IMG/VR virus record: IMGVR_UViG_3300027730_000051
Coordinates: 1-42,972 of that record
Length of the DNA stretch: 42,972 nucleotides
Origin: a virus
Strand: one strand, 5' to 3'
The notes beneath the pieces were generated by a model. That model made no database searches, was not told where the DNA came from, and saw only the letters and a list, made by a program, of their open reading frames with translations. A program made the position numbers and the translations under genes. Shown here one piece after another: positions 2,022-38,159 of this stretch (its first letter is position 1; every line of letters starts with the position of its first letter).

Positions 2022-3476
2022 CTATTCACCCTTCTTGGAACGGTTGATAAATCCTACGTCCCTTCCACCGAAACATCGGTATGCTGGGGAATATGTATCG
2101 TTTCGTCGAACATAAACCGTGTTGATACTGCTCTCAAAATCATCGGATTCAATGTTTTTAATAAGTTGAACCATCGATGACATCGAAGCTACGGATTGTG
2201 GCTTGTAGTCGTACTTCCTTCCGTCAGCATCGTATTTCTTCTTCTTCTGTTCTGCCAATTTAGCTAGTAGATTCCCTAACGGTCCACCACCTTCTTTGTC
2301 GGTTGATTGTTGCAACAATGTCAGAACATTGTCAGCAAGTTCAAAATCTATTCGAATTGGGGTTGAAGGACTCAACAATTGTGCCTTAACTTGTAACCTA
2401 TGTTCAGCCTTTTCTTCAATCGACATTTCAGGTGTGAAATTCAACTGAGATTCAAGTTGTTCATCGATGAATTTTTCATCATTCGATGCGAGAACAATTG
2501 CCGATGCGACAACCGCCGGGCTGAAATAGTTCTTTGCCCAAATTGAATCGATTTTGCCCGATTGTCCCCTTGCCGATGCGACAATTTTTGCAACCAAGTA
2601 GGACAATGCATTCATGTTGCATTCTTCCATCTCGATTGTTTCACTGGTGAATTTGTCAACCGTAACAATGTCGAACTTGGAAAGGGTTTCAAGTTCTTCA
2701 ATGGTCGTCATTTTTCCACCTGTAGGATAAATGTCTTGACCATTGAAACGTCGGTTGACGGTTTCAAGTACTTTCGACTGTACCGCAAGACAATCTGCAC
2801 GTTCTTTTTTGCGATTGCTTGGTTCAGTTGTCAACCCCGCAACATGCAAGTTAACCAATTGAATCCATTCGGATGGCATTAAAGAATCATCGCAAACATT
2901 GTCATCCTTGGAAGTTCGTCCCTTTGCTTTATCGGTCCAATCTCGCAATTGTGGTGGCATACCAAACGAACAAAGAATAAGCGGTAGAACTAAATCAGGG
3001 TTTGCGAGTTTTGCTCTTTTCATGGCATCGCAGCGATGTTGCAACGAAACCCCTTGGCCGTCCCAATTAACAGTGAGGGGGTCAGTAGGAATTGTCGCAA
3101 ACAACCCCCGAACCATAAGATTGACGTAACTACCTTCCTTGGATGCGTTCCCTACTCTCGATTCGCTTTTGTTTCGATTGTTGGCGTTTCTGTCGGCGGT
3201 ATAAGACTTGCCACCGTAAACAGCGAAGATACTATCTTCGGCAGTTGCCTCACGCAAACCAATCATCGTATCGATCATTCCCGGTACGTTAAAATCGACG
3301 AATGCGAATGCAACATGGTTTACAACGTAACTTGACAGAATTGTCGTCTCCTTAGCGGTAAGCAATTCCGCACGAACTTTACGAACTTCCGATGCTTCCG
3401 TTGTTCGTGGTCCTTTGCAGTAGTCTGCAAAAATTGCTTGCAATCCTTCAATAGTCGATACAGTAGAAATTGTCAT
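2022..3476 (-). CDS. DGQHR/ParB-like phage protein, 484 aa
   Basis: The start at 3476 is preferred over upstream ATGs because TAGGAAAG lies about nine bases before it. Around residues 145-160 the protein reads WDGQGVSLQHRCDA, resembling the DGQHR motif of ParB/Srx-like phage proteins. It is followed by a hydrophobic strand (LVLPLILCSFG) and DWTDKAKGRTSKDDN, which resembles the conserved D-x-G-x-x-R-x-x-D segment of that group. The rest is helical, with a basic region near residue 430. The family often acts on DNA or nucleic-acid modification, but no function follows from this alone. It is a single-gene transcription unit with its own leader and terminator. Confidence 0.5.
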   Translation of the reverse strand: MTISTVSTIEGLQAIFADYCKGPRTTEASEVRKVRAELLTAKETTILSSYVVNHVAFAFVDFNVPGMIDTMIGLREATAEDSIFAVYGGKSYTADRNANNRNKSESRVGNASKEGSYVNLMVRGLFATIPTDPLTVNWDGQGVSLQHRCDAMKRAKLANPDLVLPLILCSFGMPPQLRDWTDKAKGRTSKDDNVCDDSLMPSEWIQLVNLHVAGLTTEPSNRKKERADCLAVQSKVLETVNRRFNGQDIYPTGGKMTTIEELETLSKFDIVTVDKFTSETIEMEECNMNALSYLVAKIVASARGQSGKIDSIWAKNYFSPAVVASAIVLASNDEKFIDEQLESQLNFTPEMSIEEKAEHRLQVKAQLLSPSTPIRIDFELADNVLTLLQQSTDKEGGGPLGNLLAKLAEQKKKKYDADGRKYDYKPQSVASMSSMVQLIKNIESDDFESSINTVYVRRNDTYSPAYRCFGGRDVGFINRSKKGE

Positions 3477-3639
3477 AATACTAGGCTTTCCTAAAAACAT
3501 GGTTGAAAAACAAAACTCAACGACATTGTTGAGTTTTGAAACCATCAAACAACCGCTAGATCGAATGATAGTGATACAATTGAAACCGCAATTGTGACGG
3601 ATTAGTTAACACTATTTGTCAAAATTCTTTCCATATCGT

Positions 3640-3879: not shown

Positions 3880-4235
3880 TACCAAAACTCTGTTGAATTG
3901 TTTACTATTGAAAAATTCATCGGTTGAAAACTGTACTGTTGAATCTTGAAAGGGTTGAATTTTGAAAGGAAAGAGTTGGTTGAAAGGTTCAACACAAGCG
4001 GTCGATAGAATCAGCCATACGTTCCAGGTGTGTACGTGTTTAGAAAATCTCTGGGTTTTTTGTGTAAAGCAAAAGCTGGGTTTTTTGTGTGTGAGAAATT
4101 TGTCTGGGTTTTTTGCTAGAGAAGAATAAAGAAACTATCGGTACGATAGGAGTTTTATTCAAGAAGCAACACGGTAAGAATGTCTGGGGAACACTCAGGT
4201 TCATGCGTGTTAGAAATTTGTCTGGGTTTTTTGTG
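3880..4235 (+). repeat. CTGGGTTTTTT(G) repeats and TTGAA words
   Basis: No gene is seen here. After a patch of TTGAA words (3890-3990), the word CTGGGTTTTTTG occurs at 4051, 4076, 4104 and 4222, always on the plus strand. CTGGGG occurs at 4184. Two more copies of CTGGGTTTTTT are at 1895 and 1924. The flanks (AGAAATTTGTCTGGG at 4094 and 4212) are also repeated. The CTGGG core matches the window-wide motif described separately. Confidence 0.7.
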
Positions 4236-4280: not shown

Positions 4281-4365
4281 AAAAACAAAAGGTAGATTAA
4301 CTTGTCGGTGAGGACCATTCACCCGTAAAGAGGAAAGCTGCTCTTTACTAACAAGTTAACCTACC
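4281..4365 (-). terminator. Three-way-junction terminator of the 53-aa gene
   Basis: Bases 4291-4365 fold completely: 4291-4305 pairs with 4351-4365 (15 positions, one mismatch). Inside lie a 6-bp hairpin with a bulge (4306-4325) and a 7-bp hairpin (TAAAGAG 4326-4332 with CTCTTTA 4341-4347), leaving only three unpaired junction bases. On the minus strand it is followed by a T-rich tract (TTTTGTTTTT), as for an intrinsic terminator. It overlaps the stop codon of the 53-aa gene. The elaborate fold may have another RNA function. Confidence 0.65.
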
Positions 4366-4517
4366 ATAGACAATGAACAATCTTCCTCAAATACAACTTG
4401 GACGTTGGAAGGAAGATTGTTGAGTAGTGTTTCGAGTTGATTTCCATTGATTGTTTGAGAACGAAAGCCTTGAACTACTTCGAATGTATCGTTTCCTAGA
4501 TCGATGATTGTTAGCAT
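4356..4517 (-). CDS. Hypothetical protein, 53 aa, in a highly structured transcript
   Basis: The frame starts MLTIIDLGNDTFEVVQG and is acidic near its C-terminus (VVFEEDCSLSMVG). It reads like a small alpha/beta protein; no family is recognised. Its ATG lies 28 bases downstream of the first of five operator-like palindromes. The gene forms its own unit, ending in the three-way-junction terminator. Within the coding region, AACAATCTTCC (4376-4386) and GGAAGATTGTT (4411-4421) form an 11-bp perfect inverted repeat. The ribosome-binding site is weak. The RNA rather than the peptide might be the active product. Confidence 0.45.
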   Translation of the reverse strand: MLTIIDLGNDTFEVVQGFRSQTINGNQLETLLNNLPSNVQVVFEEDCSLSMVG

Positions 4518-4962
4518 GATAATCTCATTTTGTGGGTAAGGAAGTTGTATCTTGGTACGATACTAAACTTTTGCGGTCACAATAAGATTATTACAATCTA
4601 GCGAACAAAGTAAATGGGACGATACAAAGAATTTTCAAAAAGTCTAAAAGAGTCTTTTGTTGTATCATAAAAAGATACTAACTCGCTTTTGCCTTAACCC
4701 TCTCTGTTTCCAAAATAGCGGTTTAATATCATGGTACGATACAAGATTTTGGCGACAACCGGAAACTACACCCCTAATCAGTCGCTAGATCAGCAAATTG
4801 GCACCATAGGCGAACGCTAGGGGGTTTCTTGACTATTCGTATGGTATGTCGCCGCGATGCGTTATAGGTCAAATGTCGATTTCTAGCATATCGTATCACG
4901 ATACAAAAATCAAGCGGATTTGTATCTCAATATGATACAAAGTTGTATGTTGTTAGTCAACT
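4518..4962. promoter_or_regulatory. Operator island: five TTGTATC-N7-GATACAA palindromes
   Basis: No gene fits in this 445-base gap. Five palindromes with a constant 7-base spacer occur at 4545-4565, 4660-4680, 4724-4744, 4886-4906 and 4920-4940. The arms are TTGTATC and GATACAA with small variations (AATATC, GATACTA). A half-site (GATACAAAG) lies at 4620. Several sites are followed on the plus strand by a TTTTGCG-like word. They sit upstream of the 53-aa gene and downstream of the 4963-5559 gene. The symmetry and constant spacing suggest binding of a dimeric regulator. A possible minus-strand promoter near 4590-4620 (TTTACT, 18 bases, TAATCT) is weak. Confidence 0.7.
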
Positions 4963-17841: not shown

Positions 17842-18000
17842 GAAAAGATTATGTCGGAATTGCACTAACAACTTCATCTATCGCGTTAACAGGTAGACTC
17901 ATCAGAGAGTATTTATTATTACGATTATGAACTAATCTTCGGTGGTTGAAGAACCTAACCGTTAAGTGCACCAAGCTTAAAGTTAGTCTCAGAAGGCAGT

Positions 18001-18078
18001 CTGCTTGAAGGGAGTTGAACCCTCATCTACTGAGATAGGATTAGCTAGTCAGTTGCTTTACCGTTAAGCTACAAGCAT
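18001..18078 (-). tRNA. tRNA-like element with oversized anticodon loop
   Basis: Read on the minus strand: the acceptor ends ATGCTTG/CAAGCAG pair at six of seven positions. TA occupies positions 8-9, the D-arm is GCTT-AACGGTA-AAGC, and the T-arm is GAGGG-TTCAACT-CCCTT with a standard T-loop. Between them ACTGA pairs perfectly with TCAGT, the normal anticodon stem, but the loop is 15 bases instead of seven, so no anticodon can be read with confidence. Explanations are an 8-base insertion, a degenerate tRNA, or an alternative class II fold with ATCT-CAGT-AGAT as variable arm. CCA is not encoded. Confidence 0.5.
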
Positions 18079-25854: not shown

Positions 25855-26796
25855 TTAAAATGCCCTCTTGACTGATACGTTGTCGATGGTTCCGGTAAAT
25901 GCTGCCCCGCCCCTAAACAGAATTGTTCTTATTGTGTCCGCAGGGCTTTTGTGATGAAGAAAAGAATATGTACCGCTTCCGTTGATTGTGGTTACTGCGC
26001 CTGGGCCTGAACCACTTGAGCCAAGAAATACCTGTACTGATCCACTCGTGAGGGATACGCTAAAACTGATAATGTACGTTCTGCCCAATTCAACGGCAGG
26101 AAGGTTTTGTTGAATGTCGCGAAAGGACACCACACCAGTAGCAACAGCAACCCCACCGCTAATGCTCCAACCAACTCCCATGGCCCATCCAGTGCCTACC
26201 GAAAAGTCACCATTGGTTACGAGTTCGGGGAAAACAAGTGAGCCAGTGTAGGAAAGTGTTCCGGTGATTGCTACAGCACCTGACGTTACTCCGACAACAG
26301 AGACATTTGCAATAGATATAGACGCCCCTCTACCACTTGCGGCGTTCAGAGCACTATCTCCTTGAGACGATTGATAAAATCCCGTATTGGCCGCTGTCTC
26401 AGCAAGCGTGCCGTTACGCAAAGCCACATAGGAAATGTCCCAAGATGGGCAATTTAGAACACCTCGAAGCGAACCTCCTGCTGCTTGCAGTAATCGAATA
26501 CCTTGGTTGGTGACTGTCCCGCTAGCAGTCAAAGCCCCATTGATCGTCTGCCCACCAGCAGTGGTAATGACTTTATTGCCGTTGAAGTCTAAACCGGTAT
26601 TGTCGGCAGAAAGGAAGTAGTCGCCGTCACCTACAGAATCATAAAGAATTACACCACCAACACGAATCGACATTGATCCACTATCTAGTAGTGCGTAGTC
26701 AGCCAAGATACTTTTTACCCACTCAGTGTTAGCAATACGAGTGTTATTGCTATTTGATGGTGCAGTAGGTGAGTATCGAGGTCGTGTTGTTATCAT
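25855..26796 (-). CDS. Tail fibre with carbohydrate-binding-like C-terminus
   Basis: The 313-aa protein begins with a fibre attachment-type segment (TEWVKSILADYALLDSG). It continues with Gly/Ser/Ala/Thr-rich fibre sequence (ITTAGGQTINGALTASGTV, GAVAITGTLSYTG) and ends in a jelly-roll-like module. That module starts NGDFSVGTGWAMGVGWSISGG and ends GTIDNVSVK, the pattern of CBM4/9-type carbohydrate-binding domains. It probably recognises a host glycan. ATGA links it to the preceding gene. Confidence 0.7.
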   Translation of the reverse strand: MITTRPRYSPTAPSNSNNTRIANTEWVKSILADYALLDSGSMSIRVGGVILYDSVGDGDYFLSADNTGLDFNGNKVITTAGGQTINGALTASGTVTNQGIRLLQAAGGSLRGVLNCPSWDISYVALRNGTLAETAANTGFYQSSQGDSALNAASGRGASISIANVSVVGVTSGAVAITGTLSYTGSLVFPELVTNGDFSVGTGWAMGVGWSISGGVAVATGVVSFRDIQQNLPAVELGRTYIISFSVSLTSGSVQVFLGSSGSGPGAVTTINGSGTYSFLHHKSPADTIRTILFRGGAAFTGTIDNVSVKRAF

Positions 26797-28673: not shown

Positions 28674-29606
28674 CTATATGTGCAGCAGGTCAGCAACCAT
28701 TGCTTTGACAAGATCAAGGCTGTTAGGCATCCCTACACCCCAGAAATCGTCACGACCAGTTGGTCCTTTGTCTGTGCTGTACTTGACAAGAAGGTTTCGA
28801 ATGTCTTGTAGAGTAAGACGAGCTTTACCTTCTCGTTTGTTACGAGAGTTTAGCAAAGCACAAAGACCAGCAAAGAATGGTGTAGCCATACTTGTACCGG
28901 ACATTGATCGATAACCATTGGTTGTTGAACAAGAGACAATGTCTTCACCTGGACAACAAACATCTAGTTCACGACCACCGGAAGAAAATCCAGATCGTTG
29001 ACCGTTTTTGCTGTAAGCACCAATACACAAACCTTCTTGAATGTATCGGCCAGGGAATCCAATTGTATTACGAGTGCCATTGAAACCGGAATTGCCGGCA
29101 GCACTAACGACGATGATGCCTTTAGAGACAGCTAGTTCCATAGCTTTTCTCATAGGCTCATATGGAGAACCAGAACCAAGAGACATGCTAATGATGTCAA
29201 CATCTTGTTCGATTGCCCATAAAATACCGTCAGCAATTCCTTGAGAAGAACCGCTACCGGAGTTGGAAAGAACTTTTCCAACATACAACTTAGCATTAGG
29301 AGCTACACCTACGTTGGTACCTAAGACAGTACCTGCACAATGTGTGCCATGAGAATTGCCGTCTCTCCAATTTTCACCACGGATGAAAGATTGAGCAGCG
29401 TCGGGTTCAGGTAGTTCATCGTGACTATTCATGCCTGTATCGAGAACAGCAACTTTAGAAAAGTCACCTTTCTCAATTTCATGAATTTGTTGAAACAAAT
29501 CTTTTGGTCGGTGCCAAAGATTGGTTGGTGTTGCATAGATACCAACTTCAGATTTTAAGTCTGGTGGTAATTGTACAATCGGTGAGCCGTCTAATGCTAA
29601 GTCCAT
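28674..29606 (-). CDS. Subtilisin-like serine protease (S8), 310 aa
   Basis: All catalytic elements of the S8 family are present. They are VAVLDTGMN (D56), NSHGTHCAGT (H86), AAGNSG (oxyanion N172) and SGTSMATPFFAG (S239). The full domain runs from about residue 45 to 300, and the ~45-residue N-terminal segment is too short for a usual pro-domain. There is no signal peptide, so it acts in the cytoplasm or virion. It sits just behind a bracketed sigma-70-like promoter and before the head genes. Maturation of virion proteins or attack on a host protein are both possible. Subtilisin genes are uncommon in phages. Confidence 0.9.
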   Translation of the reverse strand: MDLALDGSPIVQLPPDLKSEVGIYATPTNLWHRPKDLFQQIHEIEKGDFSKVAVLDTGMNSHDELPEPDAAQSFIRGENWRDGNSHGTHCAGTVLGTNVGVAPNAKLYVGKVLSNSGSGSSQGIADGILWAIEQDVDIISMSLGSGSPYEPMRKAMELAVSKGIIVVSAAGNSGFNGTRNTIGFPGRYIQEGLCIGAYSKNGQRSGFSSGGRELDVCCPGEDIVSCSTTNGYRSMSGTSMATPFFAGLCALLNSRNKREGKARLTLQDIRNLLVKYSTDKGPTGRDDFWGVGMPNSLDLVKAMVADLLHI

Positions 29607-29680
29607 AGTACTACCTAATTAGTTAGGCAGAACTTTTTGTTTACAACTTACAAAGTTGTCAAGCTAAAACTCACTAGAGT

Positions 29681-29792
29681 TGTATCTTGGTAGGATACAA
29701 AAAGTCTGCGACCTGCAATACATTATACGCAAGAGCGAATAAAAAAGCAAGGATAATTTTCCGCAGAATTATTGTATCACGGGAAGATACAA
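29681..29792 (-). promoter_or_regulatory. Sigma-70-like promoter between two palindromic operators
   Basis: On the minus strand TTGCTT (29745-29750) and TATAAT (29722-29727) are separated by exactly 17 bases, a near-consensus bacterial promoter. One TTGTATC-N7-GATACAA palindrome lies upstream (29772-29792) and one downstream (29680-29700) of it, close to the expected transcript start near 29715. These match the five palindromes at 4545-4940. The arrangement suits repression by a looping dimeric protein. The promoter drives the subtilisin-like gene and the genes behind it. Confidence 0.75.
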
Positions 29793-36833: not shown

Positions 36834-37029
36834 AGAGTACAGTTAAACAAGAACGAGCTTCTGAGAATCGTCTGTTGTTGATGAGATTGATAATGTAATC
36901 TTTCTGTCGAACAAGAACGCGATCATTCTCTTGTTCTTTCTCACAGAATGGACAAAGAACTGAGTCATGATCGCGTTTACAATTAGGACATTGAGTTAGC
37001 AACTGATCTTCTCCAAGAAAGTTTTCCAT
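36745..37029 (-). CDS. Zinc-ribbon small protein, 94 aa
   Basis: Residues 15-35 hold CPNCKRD and CPFCEKE, two CxxC pairs ten residues apart that form a zinc ribbon. A helical, basic region follows (KDYIINLINNRRFSEARSCL, WTKHDYKYKYDELIQRI). It overlaps ThyX by 34 bases and the next gene by up to 89. A nucleic-acid-binding or replication accessory role is a reasonable inference from the neighbours. Confidence 0.55.
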   Translation of the reverse strand: MENFLGEDQLLTQCPNCKRDHDSVLCPFCEKEQENDRVLVRQKDYIINLINNRRFSEARSCLTVLCELWTKHDYKYKYDELIQRIRSSPREVED

Positions 37030-38159
37030 TCGTTGTCTGTCATTCCGTGGTCTGGATTTTTAGTAATTGCGTTGTCGTCGGCTAAGAATTGTTGATACAT
37101 ACTATGTATGATTTTCATTTCCATTCTGGAGAATTTGACTGCTTGAAGAACGTAGTCTTCAAAGGCTTCACAAGCAATAGGGCATACTTGTTTGATGATG
37201 TCGTACATTGCTTGTGCATAGAGACGAATCTCTAGTTGAGCATGTTTGTCAAGACGTAACCGAAGGAAATTGAAGATGTTGTGTAAACTACATCCCCAAT
37301 AAGCTTCTGTATAAGTCGAAAGAGGTAAGTCTTTACGAGCTTGTTCACGAGCAACACCAAGTTGTAATCGGATACGATAAATTTCTTGAGCATATTCGAT
37401 TAGTTGAGTTTCTAAATGACTAAGCAATTGTCCTGGTGTACATTGTTTATCTTTGTCACCATCGATGTAAAACTGAGAACCAGCAGCTTCTGTGTTATCG
37501 AGAAGTCCATTGACAACCCAATAACGCAGCTCGTCGTCATACCAAACCTTAACTTGACAGTCTTCTGGCCATTGTTCTAGGAATCCAGAACTTCCTTGTT
37601 TGTTGTCCTTAGACTGTAGTCTCCATTCTCCTGGGAGAGTAACTTGTTGGGAGTCAATTGCTTCTGAATATCGAGTAGAGTATTCATTAACATCTGCTGT
37701 ACGATGACGAATCCATTGTCTCCAACAATCCATTGGAACACGAATAAGGAATTCGAACTTTACTTTCTCGAATGGAGAAGTATGTCCGTCATTCATAAGA
37801 CGACGAATAAGACCTCGATCTTTCTTTTGTTGTTTTACAAAATAGTTCGGAAGGTCTCTCCATACGTTTCTTTCAGCTTCTGTTTCAATATATTCTTGTA
37901 CGGTTCCGTCTGCATAGTATTTAAGACATACAGAACTTCCGGGTGCTGTTGCATGATAATCAATTAGATTTTCTTTGAAGTGTTCGCTAAAGAGTTCAGC
38001 TCTAATTGATTCGTCCGTACTTTCTCTCTTATCTTTGCCGTAGCTTGTTCTGGCTGCTTGTACGATTCGGTCATCGTTGCCCATTACGTCTACGAGACAG
38101 ATGAATCCGTCGTTGAGTACAGGAGTCTTTTTCCATTTTAAGTTTTCTACTACGTTCAT
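36996..38159 (-). CDS. thyX: Flavin-dependent thymidylate synthase, 387 aa
   Basis: ThyX makes dTMP from dUMP using FAD and methylenetetrahydrofolate. The signature RHRTADVNEYSTRY (RHR at 151-153, with the family's RHR-x7-S spacing) is clear. GHTSPFEKVKFEF (H126) and FLRLRLDKHAQLEIRLYAQ at the C-terminal end also match. The protein is longer than many ThyX enzymes (about 220-300 residues), with extra sequence around 50-115 and 170-260. GAAAG precedes the ATG. Neighbouring DUF1599-like and MazG-like genes point to phage control of the nucleotide pool. Confidence 0.93.
   Translation of the reverse strand: MNVVENLKWKKTPVLNDGFICLVDVMGNDDRIVQAARTSYGKDKRESTDESIRAELFSEHFKENLIDYHATAPGSSVCLKYYADGTVQEYIETEAERNVWRDLPNYFVKQQKKDRGLIRRLMNDGHTSPFEKVKFEFLIRVPMDCWRQWIRHRTADVNEYSTRYSEAIDSQQVTLPGEWRLQSKDNKQGSSGFLEQWPEDCQVKVWYDDELRYWVVNGLLDNTEAAGSQFYIDGDKDKQCTPGQLLSHLETQLIEYAQEIYRIRLQLGVAREQARKDLPLSTYTEAYWGCSLHNIFNFLRLRLDKHAQLEIRLYAQAMYDIIKQVCPIACEAFEDYVLQAVKFSRMEMKIIHSMYQQFLADDNAITKNPDHGMTDNEWKTFLEKISC

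Follow-up and report, generated by a model that had tools for sequence, protein, structure and literature searches.

Several palindromes of one type lie close together at 4.5–4.9 kb of the viral DNA analysed here, and they raise the question of what they control and which protein would bind them. The window, as we call the whole 42,972-base stretch, is a single IMG/VR virus record, a contig that incompletely covers the genome of a tailed, uncultured phage, with genes nearly all on the minus strand and a coding fraction of 87%. The original prediction saw in it a cluster of five palindromic operators for a dimeric protein, with two further copies at 29.7 kb, and proposed a principal regulatory centre or an origin-linked control region.

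The phage and its relatives

Genes for tape measure, capsid/protease, portal, terminase, primase/helicase, DNA polymerase A (PolA), Sak4, ThyX and subtilase were identified in the window. Along the minus strand, the replication genes and terminase are followed by the subtilase and structural genes, then by the palindrome cluster and the c33 gene. Compared with its relatives, the window is short by several kilobases at the early end, where the ligase, UvrD, UDG and c31 genes are absent.

Searches with PolA returned one nearly identical contig (G001) and about 20 relatives; among annotated phages, the polymerase and terminase have distant matches only and the cluster region has no nucleotide match. 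Grouped into lineages at 80% PolA identity, the palindrome-bearing set comprises about nine, between which PolA identity is 49–83%; G003 is a duplicate contig of G005. The divergent pair G011/G012 carries degenerate sites only, and the most distant PolA relatives (G013, G014, G016, G018, G019 and G021) have no clear sites. The phage group is virulent-looking. A host search with PolA in bacterial genomes gave distant matches only, and a secreted phage protein had no match in 199 genomes from the phylum of a Planctomycetaceae MAG or in 200 genomes from the phylum of a Sphingomonas genome.

Elsewhere in the window, a tRNA match (18000–18078, minus strand; Rfam, 56 bits) lies among the structural genes, where ARAGORN reports none. 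The ThyX gene product (36996–38159, minus strand, 387 aa) matches a 191-position profile over residues 22–328, a span that suggests an insertion of about 115 residues, and it is only 84% identical to its counterpart in an otherwise ~100% identical contig. The late-region gene at 25855–26796 (minus strand), shorter and locally divergent relative to its counterpart in the near-identical contig G001, is perhaps a variable receptor-binding gene.

A palindrome with a fixed spacer in intergenic DNA

At up to two mismatches, the 21-bp palindrome TTGTATC-N7-GATACAA occurs six times in the window (4545–4565, 4660–4680, 4724–4744, 4920–4940, 29680–29700 and 29772–29792), against a chance expectation of 0.25 ± 0.48 in dinucleotide shuffles, 0 of 100 of which reach six. 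These are four of the five cluster copies originally proposed and both of those at 29.7 kb, and all six are intergenic, as had been claimed. The fifth cluster copy (4886–4906), near the outermost site of the relatives, matches with three mismatches, and a threshold this loose also admits chance matches (11 observed, 3.2 expected). When the whole window was scanned, as the original prediction had proposed, matches inside genes were found only at three mismatches (4 of 5 such sites, about chance level), and the non-specificity that equally good matches in coding DNA would have indicated was not seen.

The constant 7-base spacer was borne out: of the exact GTATC...GATAC pairs in the window, five have spacing 7, and the distances 2, 24 and 27 each occur once; in the intergenic DNA of related phages, spacing 7 occurs 26 times and no other value between 0 and 30 more than once. 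In the coding DNA of these phages the spacing distribution is flat, with no preference. The shuffle counts, the excess at spacing 7 and the confinement to intergenic DNA led us to reject a chance origin of the palindromes. The group consensus is about TAGTATCATnnnATGATACTA, with a core of TATC-N7-GATA. Across relatives, AT/AC...GT/AT is favoured inside the arms, so that the spacer, described earlier as variable in sequence, is not wholly free, and the 7-base arms lie 14 bp apart centre to centre rather than the 18 bases first given. In G006, G009, G017 and G020, variant arms (TTATC or ATATC) occupy the same late-promoter positions. Both in the window and in relatives, operators of the cluster and of the late promoter often have a GCG or CGCGG motif 6–9 bp to one side.

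Paired operators at the late promoter

29772–29792, no strand: upstream operator of the late promoter, centre about −68
29722–29750, minus strand: late promoter, TTGCTT-17-TATAAT
29680–29700, no strand: downstream operator of the late promoter, centre about +24
28674–29606, minus strand: subtilase gene (Peptidase_S8, E 1.7e-47), first gene of the late operon

The 29.7-kb pair brackets the promoter of the late operon, a near-consensus sigma-70 promoter, which the original prediction had missed. The arrangement is kept in 11 genomes of 8 lineages, where the two centres lie at −68 to −72 and +24/+25, 92–96 bp apart, and where the promoter before subtilase reads TTGACT/TTGCTT/TTGCCT-16/17-TATAAT.

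A four-position array upstream of c33

4920–4940, no strand: operator A1, a perfect palindrome, TTGTATCTCAATATGATACAA, 196 bp from operator B
4886–4906, no strand: operator A2, weaker, with core TATCGTATCACGATA, 162 bp from B (site A of relatives lies at 156–157 bp)
4724–4744, no strand: operator B, with conserved flank GATATTAAACCG on the minus strand
4660–4680, no strand: operator C
4587–4614, minus strand: candidate promoter TTTACT-16-AATAAT between C and D, with TG before the −10
4545–4565, no strand: operator D, downstream of the candidate C–D promoter
4356–4517, minus strand: 53-aa ORF, the first gene past the cluster, with homologues after the cluster in six other genomes
2022–3476, minus strand: c33, ~484 aa, candidate regulator; its ORF opens at 3548 (508 aa), with a likely start at ATG 3476

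The array A–B–C–D stands upstream of the conserved ~55-aa gene and the c33 gene. The A–B spacing is 156–157 bp in 8 of the 8 relatives measured, the B–C spacing is 64–66 bp (64 bp in the window), and the C–D spacing is 103–148 bp, with a promoter in between that is weak in the window and clearer in relatives. The centre of D lies at +33 to +35 in relatives and nearer +25 than +35 in the window, while the operators upstream of this promoter are centred at −68, −78, −101 and −110 to −113. Operator A2, with its three mismatches, is at chance level on sequence alone. The cluster itself is free of genes, as first described, but the conserved 53-aa ORF starts about 30 bp past the last site. Three imperfect direct repeats with TCTGGGTTTTTTG lie at 4025–4235, between the cluster and the c33 gene.

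RNA hairpins were rejected as an explanation of the palindromes: folding scores for the A–B and C–D regions gave no consistent sign of RNA structure (z between −2.9 and +1.3), and copies of the palindrome that lie upstream of promoters are not part of the transcripts of those promoters. A tight array with a nearly constant A–B spacing in relatives and a conserved B–C core is also how a replication origin with iteron-like palindromes might appear, but the same type of palindrome also stands on either side of the late promoter, at a distance of 25 kb, 7 of 8 cluster regions lack any DnaA-box-like sequence (the eighth genome has one), no AT-rich unwinding region exists at the cluster, where AT content is ordinary, and neither a clear GC-skew switch nor a phage initiator was identified. 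The proposed link to an origin is thus unsupported and we consider it very improbable, a phage-specific origin at the cluster keeping a small residual probability.

A composite element shared with the early region

4660–4744, minus strand: composite B–C element, 85 bp, two operators 64 bp apart and a conserved core (nhmmer E 4.5e-17)

The middle two cluster sites form a composite element that is repeated elsewhere, which had also gone unnoticed. The window copy is a training member of the profile; untrained copies were found in the early region of G004, G007, G002, G015 and G005 (E 3e-14 to 3e-7), and the duplicate contig G003 carries one as well. These early copies share the inner core (in G004, GGTAGGGGTAGTTCC), are inverted relative to the cluster copy and stand beside early genes. 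Only the operators account for weak profile matches at the late pairs. In G002 and G015, the near operator of the early copy overlaps the start of a 94-aa family gene, and in the early region of G002, G004 and G005 an operator lies roughly 30 bp past the start of a TTGACT...TATAAT/TAAAAT-type promoter, with the c31 gene after it; G007, G006, G009 and G017 have a similar arrangement with weaker elements.

Another conserved segment (CCGCGTCTCATTTTGAGAC, with close variants) comes directly after the early operator in G002, G004, G005 and G007. The right ends of G002, G004, G006, G009 and G017, which are independent assemblies, share a similar AT-rich sequence with ATCCC about 150–300 bp upstream of the early operator, possibly a real genome end or packaging site.

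Helical phasing and a model for repression

Judged by sequence context, the sites bracket the predicted late promoter and the candidate promoter of c33 and the small ORF, and lie downstream of the predicted early promoter in relatives. They are inverted half-sites at fixed spacing, over-represented, placed at promoters, and conserved in sequence and position across related genomes, as expected of operators of a dimeric regulator. Because the same layout is kept in about nine divergent lineages, it is most likely the binding pattern of one master regulator. The palindrome itself points to a dimer, and the dimer binding originally proposed appears well supported, since sequence, 7-bp spacer, position and inter-site spacing persist in divergent phages. 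The idea of a principal regulatory centre has likewise held up well, the conserved sites always lying at promoter regions.

At 10.5 bp per turn, the mean spacings correspond to about 9.05 turns for the late pair, about 14.9 for A–B and about 6.2 for B–C; the phasing of C–D is not significant (p about 0.1), and the shared ancestry of the genomes limits the independence of the late-pair phasing. The late pair has the arrangement required for looping of the GalR/LacI type, two operators in helical phase around a promoter. The phasing of the late, A–B and B–C spacings suggests contact between paired sites, although the geometry of the promoters, instead of a loop, could account for the conserved spacing.

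Our favoured mechanism, proposed from sequence and layout, combines a loop with a roadblock. Dimers on paired operators would touch, with the promoter DNA between them bent into a small loop, and RNA polymerase would meet a block in the dimer bound downstream (+24 to +35), so that the promoters would stay repressed until the level or activity of the regulator changes; the B–C pairs may serve as high-occupancy nucleation points that help to fill the remaining sites. Repression is suggested by the flanking sites, because near-consensus promoters should not need an activator, and also by the downstream operator. We give a probability of roughly 0.58 to the reading that the palindromes are operators of one dimeric, sequence-specific regulator that represses promoters via paired-site looping and a downstream block.

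Class I activators bind at about −61, −72, −82 and −92. The upstream centres observed here (−68 to −72 at the late promoter; −68, −78, −101 and −110 to −113 at the C–D promoter) fall roughly in that register, and a dual or activating factor could therefore contact the RNA polymerase alpha subunit from about −70, with negative feedback from the downstream operator yielding a timed pulse of transcription. We consider this rather unlikely, as the late promoters are near consensus (TTGACT-17-TATAAT), so that activation should be unneeded, and the downstream operator is the more strictly placed at both promoters.

Candidates for the regulator

The regulator of the favoured repression model is most likely phage-encoded and is possibly novel. 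Its best genomic candidate is c33, which is present in 7 of 7 genomes containing its stretch and is encoded about 1 kb from the cluster. The c33 gene probably starts further in than its ORF, at ATG 3476. Right where the 508-aa ORF begins (3511–3538, minus strand) is an 11-bp stem-loop followed by a T run, resembling an intrinsic terminator. Searches with the protein gave no PDB sequence match, no match to ParB, Pfam or NCBIfam and no recognised DNA-binding domain, and its low-confidence AF2 model (pLDDT 65.8) gave no PDB fold match. A protein of ~55 aa lies directly downstream of the cluster in seven genomes, followed by c33, and a profile of this family found the held-out G007 member at E 1.6e-19. 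The 53-aa protein is modelled with confidence (pLDDT 87.7) as a beta-beta-beta-alpha-beta fold, for which structural matches are weak and none is DNA-binding.

The c31 and 94-aa proteins were rejected as regulators: neither has a homologue found in G010, which keeps the operators, c33 and the small ORF. Three possibilities are left: the shared local candidates (c33 and the 53-aa protein), an early protein that is widely conserved, and a host factor. Among 113 small proteins from the early and c33 regions of seven genomes, HTH_3 or winged-helix proteins occur in single genomes only (G007 and G010), and no helix-turn-helix protein is common to the group. That absence would also be expected if a host repressor bound the sites and the phage used it as a sensor of host state; yet the sites track phage gene order in every lineage, and a novel phage DNA-binding fold would be missed equally by profile searches, which makes a host repressor doubtful.

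Proximity to the cluster and presence in all seven genomes would also fit c33 as a clamp of the ParB/KorB type, loaded onto DNA at the palindromes and silencing distant promoters by sliding, in which case the site spacing would not need looping. Relatives carry an (S/A)GQHR/SAQHT motif resembling DGQHR/ParB-like segments, together with a weak match to Mycobacterium phage DeadP gp52 (E 8e-3), itself a weak match to GmrSD_N (DUF262; E 0.12). We hold such a clamp to be improbable given the lack of ParB, Pfam, NCBIfam or PDB fold matches, the absence of a ParA partner among the proteins scanned, and the fixed distances of the sites from promoters, which a sliding clamp does not need. A broader proposal is that an undescribed class of phage DNA-binding protein (c33 or the 53-aa protein) binds the sites and joins the early, c33 and late control regions in a multi-site nucleoprotein hub, as the only transcription switch of a virulent phage family; this is possible, if decidedly tentative.

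Once the binder is named, a new DNA-binding family could come to light, and also a timing switch independent of lysogeny genes. The operator map of the early, c33 and late promoters describes an uncultured phage group for which no close cultured relative was found here, and in which operator pairs nine helical turns apart have stayed around promoters through deep divergence, with no recognisable repressor.

Comparison with known systems

No published system matching this one was found in the literature. Lambda CI, like the regulator proposed here, uses multi-operator arrays at phage promoters, with a long-range OR/OL loop, and its half-site TATCAC resembles the TATCAT found here. Lambda sites are 17 bp long, with arms 5 bp apart, and directly adjacent, whereas here the TATCAT arms are 3 bp apart and the sites 64–156 bp apart; no CI/Cro-type repressor or integrase was found among the proteins scanned, in a window that lacks part of the early region. 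Lambda-type operators were rejected because geometry and position differ. The stoperators of mycobacteriophages L5 and Bxb1 also give one regulator several sites per phage genome, but they are asymmetric and spread over the genomes of temperate phages (PMC6550527, PMC9283540), and they were rejected since the sites here are palindromic and confined to promoter regions. KorB of RK2, with OB sites near several promoters of one replicon as here, slides up to 1.5 kb from them to silence promoters (PMC11790492); it is a ParB-family CTPase acting by sliding, and c33 resembles ParB at the motif level only.

The best precedent, by analogy of layout, is GalR at the gal operon of E. coli, where operators at −60.5 and +53.5, 113 bp (11 turns) apart, repress both promoters by looping (PMC4693257). 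In both cases two palindromic operators (OE and OI in gal) bracket the promoter or promoters, one upstream near −60/−70 and one downstream of +1, about whole helical turns apart. No LacI/GalR-family protein was found among the window and relative proteins scanned. The pairs here are 92–96 bp apart rather than 113 bp, and the setting is viral, with several promoters sharing the operator. The operator network formed by these palindromes is real and conserved, and it places a familiar type of arrangement in a new setting.
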